Part shown: in pieces, positions 39,471-49,357 of the stretch | Layout of the letters: every line of letters begins with the position of its first letter | Position numbering within the stretch: position 1 is the first letter of the stretch | Assembly (NCBI GenBank): GCA_034687125.1 | Contig: JAQGBZ010000028.1 | Coordinates: 307,899-371,898 of the forward strand | From: Neelides folsomi | Taxonomy: Eukaryota; Arthropoda; Collembola; Neelipleona; Neelidae | DNA length: 64,000 nucleotides | Reading direction: 5' to 3' | The notes under the pieces: model-generated | Seen by the model: only the letters and a program-made list of their open reading frames with translations | What the model was told of the DNA's origin: nothing | Databases searched by the model: none | Made by a program: the position numbers and the translations under genes

Positions 39471-39998
39471 CAGTCAACGACATTAGTTTCAACACCTTAT
39501 ATCATTGTAACAGATTTATGTTGAAATCCCGAAACTTTACTCCAAAAAGGAATTGCGAAAAATCTTCGTTCATCACACACGGGAAGAAAAACCCAAGCCT
39601 ACTCCAAAGATCTTAAGAATCGGACGGGTATTACAATTATACTAAACAACGAGATTCCTGTTAAATCCCCTGACATGAGCCCAATGGACTTCTTCGGTTT
39701 TGGATTTTTAAAACAGCGCCTGCGGAAGAGAAAAGCGAAGACGTTGAACGGAGTTTGGAAAGTTTTACGAGAGGAATGGAAGACTGTCGACATCACCCGG
39801 ACAAAAGGAGTCTTTGCAGCATGAAAGAAACGGTGTGAAACCGTAATCGAAATGAAGGGGAATCATATTGAAAATTTAAAACGAATTCATTCACGCAAAT
39901 TATGATTAAAACGCTTATAAATTGAATTACCATTAAAAAAGTTATTAACTTAAATCTGTGACAATGATATAGGGTGTGAAAAATAATGTCGTTGACTG
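39471..39998 (+). mobile_element. Internally deleted Tc1/mariner element
   Basis: Inverted terminal repeats of about 45 bp: the left end starts CAGTCAACGACATTAG, and the right end is the complement of CAGTCAACGACATTAT. TA flanks both sides (39469-39470 and 39999-40000). The plus strand between them encodes the C-terminal part of a mariner-family transposase: SPDMSPMDFFGF (the region of the third catalytic acidic residue), then FLKQRLRKRKAKTLNG, WKVLREEW and, after an in-frame stop, a degraded KKRCETVIEMKGNHIENL. The N-terminal DNA-binding region and the first catalytic residues are missing, so the 528-bp element is non-autonomous. Confidence 0.85.
39620..39900 (+). pseudogene. Mariner-type transposase C-terminal fragment
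   Basis: Remnant of a transposase gene inside the 528-bp element. It is recognisable from about NNEIPVKSPDMSPMDFF onward. An in-frame TGA after TKGVFAA interrupts it before the typical C-terminal tail, which is still readable (KKRCETVIEMKGNHIENLKR). It has no start codon and no upstream catalytic residues, and is not expected to be functional. Confidence 0.75.
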
Positions 39999-40775: not shown

Positions 40776-43700
40776 TTAAAGACGAGAAGCGACAGCCGCC
40801 ACCAGGGCAGCACCTCGACCACTTCCGTCCTCAGATAACATCAATTTGAACTACAAAGTAAATACATGTAAATACATTTCAAATAAGAGAAAATTCCAAA
40901 TGTTTCCGACCTCGATCCCTTCGTCCACGAGCTCGCCGATGCTCTTGGTCATAAGATTGTGAAAATGCGGGTGAAAGCGATAGACCGAACCATCAACTGC
41001 CACAACTACGTTCTTCACTCCCATCTGATTATTAAAGAATTTCACCATTGGTTCATTTTTAAATATATTTAAATAATTGCATTAAAATTATTTACTTAAT
41101 TTCTGTTTAGTTAATATAATTAAAGCTCCGTAATGTTAAATCAGACTTACTTTATTAAGAAGACATGCAACTCCAGCAGAAGCGAGTCCAGCAGCTCTTT
41201 GAGAAACCATTTGACAAATATATCGAACGTCCACCAAATCTTGTTGGGAATATTCCAACTCCAATGATTTCAACACTTTTTCACAATTCTCAAACTCCCC
41301 CTCATTGTCCCTGAAGAAAATCATTCAATATTCAGACTTTTATGGTTGGTTTAAAGTTAATTGTAATTACATTTCCATTTCCGAGATGAACTTTGTCTCG
41401 AAGGCATGGGATTCCTGAATTTTCTTGGAAAGTTTTCCCCCAAAAAGCCCATTTGATTGGGTCAGGGAGACAATGAGCATCCGGACCACTTCTCCAAGGT
41501 AAAGTCCAGAAATCATTTTCTCAAATCTTTACAGAAAAACATAATCGGAACAATGTATGGATATTGGTTATAATGTAAGTTTGTAGTATTAGTTAATAAG
41601 TTCTTGTGCATAATTTACAGTTGTTTTCCAGGGTTAATCGACATTTGGTCAATTTGCCTATCAATGTCGGTCCTCACAAACTCAATCGACCCATCGTCTC
41701 CAAAAGCTCCCCATTCTGTGTTGATGACCACCTGAATACATCTTATTACATTAATGAATTAATTGGAAAGGAGGGCGTTAATTAAAATATTTGAAAGTTG
41801 GTCGGTGGAAACAAGGGGCGGTAAATATGTATGGGATAATTTCGGTCCTTGTGAGAACTTATATTTCCATACATCAACAAAAGAAAGATAAAAAGTAAAA
41901 TAGATGTCAAGAACCGGCCGTTGACCTCATTTGGCTCGTTGAAGTCCCCGTCCCAAAGTCCGACGTTCTCGAGCTTCTCCACATAGCACGCATTGGTTCC
42001 GGTTCCTTCAAGAAACCTTTTTATAAATAAAAATAAACTGCCAATTTCAACATTAAGAGCAAAAGCAGGCAACAAACAAGGTTGCAAAAATACATCTTGA
42101 CATCAAAGTCAATATTTTCAAAAATCAAATGCAGACAAAAAGCTCAAGCGTAATAAAATAAAACATTCAAGCAAAGATATAATAAAAAATGAGTGGGACG
42201 ACGATGGTTTTTTGTCTTTGTTCAAATCGAGCAAATTTCTTTATTAATGTAAGTTATGTTGAGATAAAAAAGTTAAAATAAGTTAAATGGGCACAGTGGT
42301 GAGAAATAGGAAAGAAAACTTCCGGTCTAAAAGCTTTGTTTCTCGTGGATTGGATCATTGAAACAAAGGTTTGGTTCGAATCTCCTCTATTTTCCCAATA
42401 TTATGAGGAGAGTGAAAAATGAAAAATAATTAAATTCATCAATCTTGTGAAAATTTCGTTAATTTGTTTAAATCTTTAAAGATCTTTTGGTTAATTCTTT
42501 TTTTTTGAGAAAGGAGACGGGATAAATCATGGACTAGCTAAATATAATTTACCTTAAGATTTAATTAAGAATTGGAAAAGACTTAATGAATGGGTTATAA
42601 TTATAAATTATAAAAAATTAAAAGATAATTATAATAAAAATATTTACTAAATGAGAACAATGTTTTTTAAAAAAGTATTTCTTTGCTTCTCTTCGCCCAC
42701 CTCAACTTTCCAATCCGCGTGTGGAATTTGGGGAAAACATCCCAACATTTTCCCTCAATTTTCCACCTAATGGCAAGATGGGCCGACACGAGAGCGGATG
42801 TTCTCAAACAAAGCAACCGACCCAAAGAACAATCAAGTTTGGGAAATTTCATTCCAATTCATTAAACCTCTATTTAGATTCAATTGACTCCGTGTAAGCC
42901 AAAGTACTCCCACCATCCCCAGCAACTCTCCTCCATTATTCTCATAAGCCAACGGCTTCTTCACTCATTTATCATTAAATCATTATTAGAGGAAAAGTTG
43001 ATTTAAACCATGAATTAATTCAACTTTCCGCTTCAAATTCAAAAAAGATAAGCTGCATATGTTTAACTATATTAAAAAAAGTAGCATTGTGATAGCTGAT
43101 AAACTTATTTTATACCTAGCTTAAATTTTGTCCTATTGCATTTAAATGTAAGGGGTGGTGAAAATGGGATCAAAGTGGAAAAAGAGAATAAATAGTTGAA
43201 CTACTTCACATGAACTACTCCTCGAACCGATGAAGGAACAAAGGAAATTAAAAACTCATCTTCACATGCTCCCAACACACTTCAATTCCACTTGAGAATA
43301 AAAGCCATGGAAAGAAGGCAAAGCAGAGAGGGCAAAGGAGATTGGAAAAATATTTAAATCTTGGTGGATCAATTTTTACCAACGATGAGTCCAATGCGGG
43401 AGTTTGGCAGCCGCCATGCACAAGACATCAGCGTCCCTGTCGTGTCATTCAGGAGGGCGCAAACGTCGATCTCGACGTCCTAATTTGTACAAACACATTT
43501 CACTTTCCCATTCCCATGCCCCGTTCCCTGACCCGCATTCCCCCATTTCCTCACATTCGGAAACATTCCCTCGGCCCATTAGTAGAAAAACCCTCAAAGC
43601 AAAGGAAAATGGATTTTCAAAGTTTCGATGGGCCAAATGGTTGTGAACAATGTCACCACCTGACTCAATTGATCAAAATAATTCCAAATAATTCAATTAT

Positions 43701-46527
43701 CTGGCATGTAATCGCCGCCATGACTTTAAAAATAAAACGCAATTTGAAGACTTGAACTAAACTTAAACTTGAAAGTTAAAATACTGTTGATTGTGGATTG
43801 ATTAACAGCTTTAATAACATACTGATACTTGTATTTTAAATGTTATAAACTATGGTAAATACTATATAATAAATAGGAAGATAAATACTATATAATAATG
43901 GGGAGGATATTACTTTCGATAAAATGGTGTTTATCAAATAATAATATTATCAGGTAATATCTTAATCTTTTAATATGATTCTATTGAAATTCCTCTTGAA
44001 ATTGCAATTATCAGTCCCTAATGTACGTAGTAGATATGTGTGACTATTCACGTGTTACTTACCTACATATGATTGGAATGTAAAATACACTTGTATTAAA
44101 TAGTGCATTTTTATAAACAATCCATGCGTCCACAAATAGTTAAATTTATAAAAGATTTCATTGGAAATTTAAACCGGAAAATCCTAATTTAATTAATGTA
44201 ACTAATTATAATTAACTAGTTATGTGCATAGTTATTTTAACTCAAATTCTGAGAAGTAATTCTAATCGAAAATACCTACGTAGTGGTTATTATTAATATA
44301 CTTATATTACAAATACAATTGGAATTTACTTATGATTACCATAACTTATGTTAATATGTACAGCGTGAAATTATGAGAAATCTAAAAAAACATAGTTACA
44401 TTTAGAATAGGTAACCCTATACATAAAGTACATATAAAATACATAAAATAGACATATTAATACTATTTAATTATAATAATATGTTACTAATTGTAGTACG
44501 AGTGCAAACGGAAATTGATACTTTCCTAATGAATTTTGATCAGCTCTCTGGTCCCAATTACCAGGTTAATTTAAAGATGCACCTGAACCCCTGTGAATCA
44601 TGCACGTTCCTTCAATTGCGTATTATTTTTAAAATGGCAAGGTAAAAGCAAAATCAAAATAATGAGAACCGAGACAAACGCCGGCCCTTGCGTTTTGATC
44701 GTTGAAGGCGCAGGCCACCAAAGTCCCCGTAGTGTCGTTCAGGAGCGCGATTTGGCCCAACGTAAAATCCTAAACTCACATTGGAACGCGTTTTTCAATT
44801 CCCCACTTACCCCTCGTGCCCTGATGGCGTCTTCAAGCAGTTTGACGACGTCTTTGCCCTCCACATCCGAGCAATTGAATCCCTTGGTCCATGTGACCAA
44901 AGTCCCTCTGGTCAGCCCTTCTTGCCTGCATGGGAAGGAGAAGGTGAAGCCCAAGGACAATTTACAACTCTCCACTCCATGTTTCTTCACAAATTTCGAA
45001 AGGCATTCGGCAATGTGATCAAATAACTATTTAAGCAAAAACACATATACCATATACATATAATAATTATACCATCCATAACAACACATAGTTCTGTATT
45101 TAGGTAATTTAACACTGGTATGTTTTAATTCTTTTAATTCGGTTATATAAGCAACGTCATAATGTCTACCATAGATAGGATATACATATAATATAGTTAT
45201 ATAAATAATAAACCCGGTGTAAGGAACTTACCGCACTCCCCGGTCCAGTCATGATATCGGCTGGAATGACAAAAATCTCCGATATGTCTCCAGCCGTATT
45301 CCCCAAATCGACGAGGAGAACCCGAAAATTTGTCCCGCCAAGGTCCAAAGCAAGGAATTTCCCGCGTTCTGTCAATTAGGCAAAAGCTTAAATATCTTTT
45401 GTTTGCAATTTAATGGCTAAAGGAGATCCGGCAAAACTCTGCATCATCATGTTCCTCAATTTAACGATCCCTCAAGTTGAAGTATGCAAGAATGTAATAT
45501 TTATATTTATATTGGAGAGAAATGTGAGTGTTATTTAGACATTATTTCCAGCTTGGAACTTCCAACTATTTATTTCCACGCACATTGGTATCAAATGACT
45601 CATCGAGGTCGTAAAAACCATGAACTGTTCTTATGTAAACTTCCAGACAATTTTGATGGTCCATTGGGAATAAAAATATGTGGAACATTTTTAGTTGTCA
45701 TCTTAATGTTGGACATAATGAGGTTAAACCAAAGGAGCTGTTGAGAGGAACTCCATTGGAAGCATTTATTTATTCTTCATGACTCTCTTCATGTCCAATG
45801 GGAATCTTCTCAATCGGGCGTGTGAACGAAAAAACCATTTGATGGCGTCTGGAAGCATTAAAGAGGTTATAGGGGTCAAGAGGGACAACACACGCGTCGA
45901 AACCACAAATCCCTTTATTTATACACCAAAAGAGGAAAAAATGATGCTGAAAGAATGTTTTTATTCCGACGTGGCAAACCACAAGGATTATACAACCATA
46001 GATCAAACCAAAGTTGCTCCAAACTACTTAAATGCCAATCCGCTCAACCATTGGGAAGGGATAGGAAAAAAGAGTCCAAGAAAGACTCCTAAGAGTTTAA
46101 TTACAACTTCTGACCAGTTCATTCTGAGATCATAAAACCATTAGGAAATGAAATGTTAATGAGAATGGTCGTTCAACCATCGTTGGTCTTTACATAATAA
46201 CTTCAAAGGATTTCCCTAATCACTAAATGATCATTTGATGAATTTAATTAAACATCATTTCATGACTTTACTTAAACAATGATTTGATGAATTTGATAAT
46301 GATTTTGCGTGTTTAATTAAATAACGATTTCATGGATTTAATTGAAGATTCTTCTTACCTTCCCCATTTGGAAGTTTTCTTACATAAGTTGGGAAGCATT
46401 TGACGACTGCTTGAGCATTTGTGGATTTTCCTAATCCTTTTTCCAGGTCTCGACGGAGAATTTGGCAAACTTTGGCGGCATTTTGCTGGGTGAGCTCGAG
46501 GATGTGGCACTCTTCCTTCACCTTCAT
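40776..46527 (-). CDS. Hex: Hexokinase with duplicated alternative exon 4
   Basis: Single-domain hexokinase (ATP:hexose 6-phosphotransferase), the first step of cytosolic glycolysis. Coding order: 46527-46359, 45368-45232, 45026-44811, exon 4a 44769-44670 or exon 4b 43479-43380, 42005-41926, 41731-41619, 41526-41371, 41310-41151, 41024-40911, 40850-40776. Using one exon 4 gives 439 residues, normal for an animal 50-kDa hexokinase. Landmarks: [11 protein letters not shown] (phosphate loop), [11 protein letters not shown] and TKGF (glucose site), LLNDTTGTL (catalytic Asp), [22 protein letters not shown], and the C-terminal adenosine site [14 protein letters not shown] and [12 protein letters not shown]. 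The start was set at the first ATG of the N-terminal exon ([12 protein letters not shown]); an additional upstream exon cannot be excluded. Splicing in both exon 4 copies would add 100 nt and break the frame, so they should be mutually exclusive. Confidence 0.95.
42006..43379 (-). other. Hexokinase intron between exons 4b and 5
   Basis: 1.37-kb AT-rich intron. No exon-like segment with homology was found. A T-loop-like GGTTCGAATC near 42372 was examined as a tRNA and rejected. Confidence 0.6.
43380..43479 (-). other. Hex: Hexokinase exon 4b (alternative)
   Basis: 100-nt exon with an AAATTAG acceptor and GTAAAA donor, phase 0 in and phase 1 out. It encodes [20 protein letters not shown] followed by [14 protein letters not shown]. 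This closely resembles the standard hexokinase sequence at the catalytic Asp and the following GLIVGTG turn, so it is the conventional-looking copy. It lies 1.2 kb downstream of exon 4a in gene order. Confidence 0.9.
43480..44669 (-). other. Hexokinase interval between exons 4a and 4b
   Basis: 1.19-kb AT-rich spacer separating the two alternative exons. It contains a short direct repeat (ATAAATACTATATAAT at about 43865 and 43890). No docking-type paired sequence was identified by eye. Confidence 0.55.
44670..44769 (-). other. Hex: Hexokinase exon 4a (alternative)
   Basis: 100-nt exon with the same length and phases as exon 4b. It encodes [17 protein letters not shown], then [17 protein letters not shown]. 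The catalytic NDTTGTL core is kept, but the flanks differ (QIA versus [17 protein letters not shown] versus [13 protein letters not shown]). The acceptor is good (GAGTTTAG); the donor is weak (G|GTTCTC). Expression is unproven, but the frame shows no decay. Confidence 0.8.
45369..46358 (-). other. Hexokinase intron 1, with degenerate tandem repeats
   Basis: 990-bp intron. From about 46225 to 46345, next to exon 1, there are four or five degenerate copies of a roughly 25-28 bp unit with a core like GATTTGATGAATTTAATTAAA. A 118-codon open frame on the plus strand (45779-46135) matches nothing recognised. Confidence 0.5.
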
Positions 46528-47899
46528 AAAAGTAATTTAATCATATAATGGGGTTATATTTGATTGAGAATGGGCTGTGTGTTTTGCCAGAGGTTTGAGG
46601 CATTTGAGCATTCGGTGAGTGATTGGTGACCTGCGAGCTTCCAAGTGGAGGTCATCCCTCCATGGAGATCAATGGGGAGGAACGAGTTTGGAGCTCCCTG
46701 AGAGAATTTGGCAAGATTCTGGTGTGCTGGATGAAACCAAAAACTCGTTTGGTAAAATTTGGCAAGAACATAAATCGGGAGTCGTTAAAAAGAGCCTTTT
46801 ATAAAAATGAAGTTGGGGGTTGGAAGTGGTTCCTAAAAGTGATCCGTGGGCAACGCGGGCCGCCGGTCTGCTCAAGGACGCCTCTCCTATAAATCCAAAG
46901 GCGAATGTGGATTCGCAAACCGGTCGGGTTTTTATATCAAATCAACTTCTGAGTCTCACGATGACATCGGCCCAACCACTCCACATATCCATAAGAAACA
47001 TGCCCAAATCTATGCTAAATTAAACCCAAGCTCAACAAAGACTCCGTTTTCCCAATCACCAGCTCAGGGAGTGACTCATCCGCCCTCACACTCAAAGACA
47101 CTCAAAGACAGCCAAAGACAACCAAGAAGACATTCGAAGACAAGAGACGTGGAAGGGATGAAATGTCAAGAGGAATTCAAATGAGATTCATTGGGAATAA
47201 AAACTGGCTCCTATAAAAACTGACCTCAGCAACGAGTGTGAGAGTTGACGAACCAAGTTTTATTTAATCCGCTCACACAATATCGGCCCATCTCATTAAG
47301 CCGAGGAATTGGAGAGCTTTCCCTCCGCGACCCCTCGACCCCTCACATGGAGGAAATGCAAACCCACCCAGTTGACGGAAATGAACCGACTTTTCCCACA
47401 TTATCCATTATCCCCTCCATCGCAATTAGATTCAAAATGGCTCAAAAATTGGAGCCAATTCCCACTTGCCAGCGCAAATATGGCCCTCGACTTTCACAAA
47501 TACAATTCAAATCCAAAAAGGAACAAAATGATAAATGAGGGACACAAAACAGAAGTGAACAAAAGATTTCCCAAATTCCTTATCAAAACTTGTAATTTAA
47601 TAAAAGGAACCCAAATAGTCAAGACCAAAATAAAAATAAATAAGATATTTACTTCTTCAAAACATCAATGTCTTTGAATGGCAAATTGATGTTTTGAATC
47701 AATTAAAATTTCCTATACCAATCATCAATTTTGCTCTGATCAATCTTATCATCCCAAATCTGTTGATAATTATAAACGCTTTTGTATGCACATAGCAAAC
47801 GGGGTTTCCTATATACAATTTTATTTTAATAAGAAAGCTTTAGGTTATTCTGGGCCCGATTTCCAATTCATGTTCCTCTCAGACCCTGTGATTGCACTA

Positions 47900-48013
47900 G
47901 GTACCTATATATATATATACACGGTGGGCCCGAGTTAACACTCTTTTTTACTTATTTATGATTTTAAAAAAGAGTGTTGGGGCCAACCATATATATACGC
48001 TTATTTAGGTACA
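47900..48013. repeat. Short fold-back repeat
   Basis: Inverted repeat of about 114 bp. The inner arms pair AACACTCTTTTTTA with TAAAAAAGAGTGTT, the middle arms pair GGTGGGCCC with GGGGCCAACC, and the outer arms pair GTACCTA with TAGGTAC across AT-rich runs. It is probably a small MITE-like element; no target duplication could be fixed. Confidence 0.6.
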
Positions 48014-49357
48014 TAAAATTTTATCTTAGTCATTAGCGCATATTCACGAGGCCTCGGAAGTTCTCAGCCTGCCATGTGCAATATATATATATATATATAA
48101 AGTACCTACAAAGATAATTTGAGGTGTTTTGATGCCAAATCCTAAGTTCATCTCTCAATCCTCAACTCGTGGATCAATTAAATTGGATAAATGGACAAGG
48201 ACCATCGTATCAGTTAGTGACTTGTATTGAGTGATTGTCTATTTGGTATTTGGTCCTTGGGCAAATAAAAGGTTCAATTAAATCAACATTTAGTTAATCC
48301 CCAAATGAGCCATATAAGTAGTTTTAGTCATTGAATGTGTATGGAATAAGTAAAGTAGGTGGGACATAAAAGGACAGTCTAAATGGTTTTAAATACCATA
48401 AATTTGCAAACATATGGACAATACAAAATATCATTAGAATATTTCCTTTACGTACTTTGACTCAAATATAGATCAAACCGCTGGCGTGACATATAGACAA
48501 ATTCTTGCCGGAATTTGACCGGCCAAGTTTTAAATATGAAAAAAAGTGTAAATTTATGAGGACCTGTTTAGAGACCGAAGGAGCCATGCGGAATAAGTTG
48601 ATGGATGTTGAAGTGGCGCGATCAGCTGGAATCCCTGGACATGAATGACTGAATAATGTCTGAAACTAAAACTCCCCTTACAAAACCCTGCTGTCTGCGG
48701 ATCTAACATTAAGTAGGTATCATTTATTAAATAAATCATCATAATCATTCCAACTAATCAAACTGACCAAGTCCATTATGTCAATCCGATCTATTATTTA
48801 TTTTCTTACTAATTTAATTGCCATTCATCATTTATCATTTCAATTAATTTATTTAAAGTTTCTCAGAATTTTCGTCATTCCGTTGTGAAACATCGTTTAT
48901 GTATTTTTAGGCATCATTTCACACTTGATTATTTGATTAATGTTTCATAAAATATTGAAATTGAAACTATCCAGATTTACTATATATATATTTTTTAAAA
49001 ATTTAAGTATTTTTAACGTATTTATGCCTATTAGCCTTAATATTTACATTGGGTTAATAATTATAAATCCAATTGAGGCTAAATTGGGATGGTCAATTAC
49101 GCATTGGATTTTTAACTCAAAGACACATTATTTAAGTGTTATTCATCTTTTCTGCGTCTTTTACGTCTTCGTACACATCTATATTTTTCGTTCACCATTC
49201 GATCAGAGTTATTATTATTTAATTACTATAAATATTAAAACTTTCAAACGACTGCATGTATCGATTATATTTATGTATGGTATATGGATCTATTAATATA
49301 GAAATATACAGAAAGTTAAGAACGAATAATAGGTTTAAAATAGCTCAAGACGCCCCA

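Follow-up and report, generated by a model that had tools for sequence, protein, structure and literature searches.

Can one hexokinase gene give rise to two enzymes by exchanging the exon that carries its catalytic aspartate? This question is raised by a stretch of 64,000 nucleotides, here called the window (contig C28, positions 307899-371898, of a draft genome assembly of 75.1 Mb in 840 contigs), in which a hexokinase gene lies on the minus strand between positions 46527 and 40776. The gene has ten coding positions and a product of 439 amino acids, and its exon 4 is present in two versions, 4a and 4b (Table 1). Our results show that 4a and 4b are adjacent homologous exons that can be interchanged in frame, and that the presence of both, or of neither, breaks the frame. 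The initial annotation had placed them at 44769-44670 and 43479-43380, 100 nt each, entered in phase 0 and left in phase 1, and these limits proved exact to the base. The junctions that it had proposed (44811/44769 and 44670/42005 for 4a, 44811/43479 and 43380/42005 for 4b) are in frame throughout, and each choice gives a protein of 439 amino acids. It had also argued that a full-length product can contain just one of the two exons, and indeed double inclusion stops the reading frame early, at codon 219 inside 4b.

Table 1. Features of the hexokinase gene in window positions; a slash marks the exon-intron junction
Feature	Position	Strand	Length (nt)	Description	Basis
Exon 1	46359..46527	-	169	ATG at 46527	Translation, splice sites, Pfam PF00349 match
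Exon 2	45232..45368	-	137	Motif-bearing	Translation, splice sites, PF00349
Exon 3	44811..45026	-	216	Phase 0 end; donor GGG/GTAAGT	Including PF00349
Intron 3	44770..44810	-	41	Contains donor-like AAT/GTGAGT, GT from 44779, ten bases upstream of exon 4a	
Exon 4a	44670..44769	-	100	Phase 0 to 1; acceptor GTTTAG, weak donor TCG/GTTCTC	
T-rich stretch	44630..44663	-		+7 to +40 past 4a donor	
GGG-run cluster	43480..43579	-	100	Directly upstream of exon 4b	
Exon 4b	43380..43479	-	100	Phase 0 to 1; acceptor AATTAG, donor TTG/GTAAAA	
Exon 5	41926..42005	-	80	Phase 1 start; completes GTGTNACY; donor GAG/GTCAAC	
Exon 6	41619..41731	-	113		Including PF03727
Exon 7	41371..41526	-	156		Including PF03727
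Exon 8	41151..41310	-	160		Including PF03727
Exon 9	40911..41024	-	114		Including PF03727
Exon 10	40776..40850	-	75	Includes TAA stop	PF03727 extends to 40791

Both Pfam domains, PF00349 and PF03727, score above their cut-offs (24.3 and 24 bits) in either version of the protein, with 225.2 and 268.5 bits for the 4a form and 235.1 and 274.0 bits for the 4b form, which leaves the 4a form 15.4 bits below the other. Whole-genome searches with these families, in which the best candidates were scored, gave hexokinase matches at two places, the present gene and contig C188. Neither copy of exon 4 appears among these matches because each is short and straddles the border of the two models. Upstream of the gene, at 47895-48015, we noticed by eye an inverted-repeat segment between TA-rich ends (AACACTCTTTTTT ... 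AAAAAAGAGTGTT), which is possibly a small mobile element.

Exons 4a and 4b share 52 of their 100 nucleotides and 16 of their 33 amino acids, and 11 of these 16 common residues are encoded by different codons. The 17 residues that differ spare the Asn-Asp pair; they lie ahead of the motif, in the residues that follow it and at the entry to the GTG turn, where 4a has GVCL and 4b has GLIV. The translations bear out both features pointed to by the initial annotation, the common catalytic core with its Asp and the GVCLG versus GLIVG difference, and NDTTGTL is kept in both exons, each with the catalytic Asp in the NDT motif. In an alignment starting with query residue 3 at residue 648 of HK1, query residue 12 is matched to HK1 residue 657, which we take to be the catalytic Asp (the catalytic base). 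Any effect of the 4a/4b differences on the handling of hexose or nucleotide is a matter of speculation. In a profile scan of 272 kb, window included, that covered 543,394 six-frame segments of 33 residues, 4b came first (41.9) and 4a second (40.4), followed at 16.3 by a half-exon of the second hexokinase, whose peptide is in the profile, over a background of at most 1.0. Since the two exons take the top two places among 543,394 segments, their resemblance is not due to chance. No third copy of exon 4 was found in the 272 kb scanned.

Has 4a been maintained as coding sequence? A second measure of its quality was obtained with a 33-column profile that left out 4a and 4b and was built from 42 bacterial hexokinases and the two halves of HK1 (PDB 4f9o, presumably the human enzyme); the 42 members were those with exact motif spacing among 71 reading frames extracted from 72 bacterial loci, and the others were dropped. 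Animal-type hexokinases encoded by Omnitrophota and other bacterial genomes are at most 42% identical to the window gene, an observation that may bear on hexokinase origins. On this profile 4a scored 36.1 bits, 4b 36.8 bits and the C188 gene 58.3 bits; the profile members themselves scored 72 to 97 bits, and random stop-free 33-mers had a mean of -49 and a best score of -2.1. Both window exons are about equally distant from the bacterial and HK1 norm. Neutral drift was simulated starting from 4b. The frame stayed open and the score reached that of 4a in a fraction of 0.089 of the runs at 6 expected substitutions, 0.041 of 4000 runs at 8, and 0.0055 at 15; at 35 and at 50, none of 4000 runs did so. 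From the better-scoring C188 start the corresponding fractions were 0.21 at 15 substitutions, 0.08 at 20 and 0.02 at 27. The decay simulation was done for 4a only; 4b has a similar profile score. With 48 of 100 sites different between the two exons, a lack of constraint on 4a ever since the duplication is unlikely, and as 4a matches 4b on the profile, it has probably been under coding constraint through most of its history. In our view this profile and simulation work makes a good case for long-term selection of 4a as hexokinase coding sequence.

The initial annotation had read the undecayed frames as a sign of selection on both copies, and had suggested that dN/dS be compared between them. 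The profile, the decay simulation and a pN of 0.38, lower than the pS of 0.79, speak for long-term constraint on 4a, the synonymous differences being saturated. However, in a three-branch codon model neutrality was rejected on neither exon branch (likelihood-ratio statistic of 1.34 for 4a and 1.61 for 4b), and was rejected only for C188 (5.50). This branch test has low power because the synonymous sites are saturated.

The splice sites were judged against a set of 30 donors, namely that of 4a, 19 others from the two hexokinase genes and 10 from repeat-anchored introns of another gene of the window; the 29 controls were anchored by homology and read by eye from translations, some of the C188 junctions being best readings, and an eleventh junction of that other gene was excluded as ambiguous. 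The gene in question, at 12-20644, is a giant one made up of Ig/fibronectin-III repeats, with a kinase-like reading frame after them; by eye it looks titin/twitchin-like. A collection of short introns gathered ab initio from the 272 kb for learning the donor pattern turned out to be noise, and was replaced by these homology-anchored donors. With 3 of 9 matches to the consensus CAGGTAAGT, the 4a donor has the fewest of the 30, the other 29 having at least 4, a weakness that the initial annotation does not mention. Its weight-matrix score of -1.2 bits is the second lowest, and 58.7% of the 6,379 GTs of the window score at least as high. The 4b donor, at 4.05 bits, is the ninth lowest and is equalled by 6.1% of the window GTs; judged by their sequence, the splice sites of 4b appear acceptable. 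Two other possible 4a donors just upstream (GTTTGT and GTCTCG) were rejected by eye, for a phase clash with exon 5 or a new stop. The claim that both exons are used alternatively therefore stands in part: only one of them fits in a full-length product, but the 4a donor is no better than a typical GT of the window, and because of this poor donor the present use of 4a is uncertain.

4a nevertheless has its acceptor AG and its donor GT exactly at the homologous positions, the acceptor being a plain one after the short intron 3. The lowest-scoring donor of the 30 is GAG/GTTCCC in the C188 gene, at the site equivalent to the exon 5/6 junction of the window gene, as judged by homology; it has an AG ahead of the junction, which the 4a donor lacks. 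Since this donor is anchored by homology, donors of such a weak kind appear to be used. Three further features, all noticed post hoc, are leads for regulation and not tests of it. The donor-like site in intron 3 scores 4.76 bits against -1.2 for the 4a donor; the T-rich stretch past the 4a donor is 59% T, more than at any other of the 20 donors listed; and the 100 nt upstream of 4b contain 8 GGG runs, a number of at least 8 being found in 0.16% of 100-nt windows. The GGG cluster is possibly a splicing control element.

Our preferred interpretation, to which we give an even chance, is that 4a and 4b form a regulated, mutually exclusive exon pair through which one hexokinase gene makes two enzymes. 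We favour it over the possibility that 4a is a dying relic, a formerly working alternative exon that has lately lost its donor while 4b is included in all transcripts. This second reading, which we regard as rather unlikely although it is the most serious competitor, would explain why the 4a donor is indistinguishable from a random GT and why the codon model gives just 1.34 on the 4a branch. The simulations allow it if the loss is recent: for a 4a that started at the quality of 4b, fewer than about 8 neutral substitutions ago, and for one that started at that of the second hexokinase, about 20 or slightly more. However, 4a retains an intact frame, acceptor, donor GT, phase and core residues, and the paralogue has an intron with a GTTCCC donor that is anchored by homology.

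We propose that the mutually exclusive pair originated when the 100-nt exon with the catalytic Asn-Asp was duplicated in tandem long ago, and that exon 3 would be joined either to 4b, probably by default, or to 4a, as a conditional form, either of which would then be joined to exon 5. With its very weak donor and the T-rich stretch after it, 4a would need an activator, which may be of the TIA-1 type. The GGG cluster ahead of 4b may help to set the choice. Computed messages with both exons stop at codon 219, 691 nt upstream of the last junction, and those without either exon stop at codon 220 in exon 6, 488 nt upstream of it. Both would presumably be removed by nonsense-mediated decay, and the use of one or the other would be enforced in this way. 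Frame incongruity with nonsense-mediated decay is among the possible enforcement routes for mutually exclusive exons given in PMC7969005. Two other enforcers were discarded. The 1190 nt that separate the exons speak against steric hindrance. As for an RNA stem across 4b, the intron pairing around this exon was equalled by none of 21 mononucleotide shuffles of the whole intron, but local dinucleotide shuffles were as good in 24 of 1000 cases for the duplex and in 73 of 200 for the whole fold; pairing between the flanks of 4a showed no significant structure (323 of 500 shuffles were as good).

What could be the roles of the two forms? Since NDTTGTL is retained in both, we infer no loss of catalysis for either, and any difference between the two enzymes may instead concern their stability, their regulation or their kinetics. 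Tentatively, and with less confidence than for the exon pair itself, we suggest that 4b could provide the housekeeping enzyme and 4a a condition-activated form, for instance in dormancy or in a particular tissue, with other kinetics or product inhibition, under the same promoter and with the same remaining 406 residues.

Instead of a second enzyme, 4a might provide a switch: if its donor fails, or if 4a is joined to 4b, a truncated or decay-targeted message would result and the output of hexokinase would fall. The very short intron between exons 3 and 4a (41 nt) fits this idea, as do the 13 residues and the stop that would be added by reading through an unused 4a donor and the stop at codon 219 in the double-inclusion message. 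We nevertheless find it improbable, since a pure switch has no need of conserved hexokinase coding, yet the core residues of 4a have been kept through synonymous change. That the second exon 4 is an assembly or haplotype artefact is hardly credible, draft genome of 840 contigs though this is, since at just 52% identity 4a and 4b are not haplotypes, and the 1190 nt between them have a single match in the genome, their own locus (simple repeats and very common words skipped).

The mutually exclusive pair can also be placed in relation to the second hexokinase of the genome, whose Pfam matches lie at C188:38261-40412. Its protein is 46% identical to that of the window gene and has the same NDTTGTL core; its introns in the catalytic region sit elsewhere, and one copy only of the catalytic segment was found in the 8 kb scanned. 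Over the exon 4 peptide, 16 residues are shared by 4a and 4b, 16 by 4a and C188, and 18 by 4b and C188, which suggests a similar age for the exon duplication and the gene duplication. No relative was found in a first scan of genome contigs, nor in a scan of viral contigs. The genome is that of an invertebrate animal, as indicated by a mitochondrial contig whose COX1 has 11 in-frame TGA codons and is flanked by what look by eye like nad2, cox2 and atp6, in an arthropod-like arrangement. In the C188 gene, homology points to a 9-nt exon on the minus strand at 39570-39578 (GATCAAATG) that is seemingly needed for the LATGSNACY loop. The turn ahead of SNACY is ATG instead of GTG, and this paralogue may therefore have altered kinetics or be degenerate.

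The hexokinase reaction commits glucose to metabolism, and variants of the enzyme in animals usually come from separate genes. If a splice swap around the catalytic Asp is confirmed, it would be a compact natural experiment: the two enzymes would be the same except in a segment of 33 residues, where 17 positions differ, and would reveal the sites around the catalytic centre by which kinetics or inhibition are tuned. Hexokinase would also join the central metabolic enzymes under the control of mutually exclusive exons.

How does this arrangement compare with known systems? In vertebrates, exon 6 of GCK (c.580-679) is 100 nt long and runs from codon 194 in phase 0 to codon 227 in phase 1, boundaries that fit both 4a and 4b; a literature search gave no match for them. 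Since length and phases agree, the exon that was duplicated would be an ancient one in animals, and to our knowledge this 100-nt exon is single copy in the vertebrate GCK and hexokinase genes. Exons 9 and 10 of PKM are of the same kind: PKM, too, is a glycolytic kinase, and each of its isoforms (PKM1/PKM2) carries one exon of a mutually exclusive pair; enzyme and fold are different, and in PKM the splicing is proven and alters regulation, whereas the 4a/4b pair is predicted. In OGDH, another central metabolic enzyme, PMC7969005 describes an ancient exon duplication with mutually exclusive use of exons 4a and 4b; the likeness lies in the duplicated exons, the difference in the enzyme. For ketohexokinase, PMC11332825 describes KHK-A and KHK-C, alternative splice products of a single gene that exclude each other in most cells and differ in their kinetics; these are also two sugar-kinase isozymes of one gene, but of the pfkB family and not of the hexokinase family. 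The initial annotation knew of no hexokinase with mutually exclusive catalytic exons, and none is apparent in the titles and abstract openings of the literature matches listed. Mutually exclusive exons are thus known in metabolic enzymes such as PKM and OGDH, and a hexokinase with them would be new to us.
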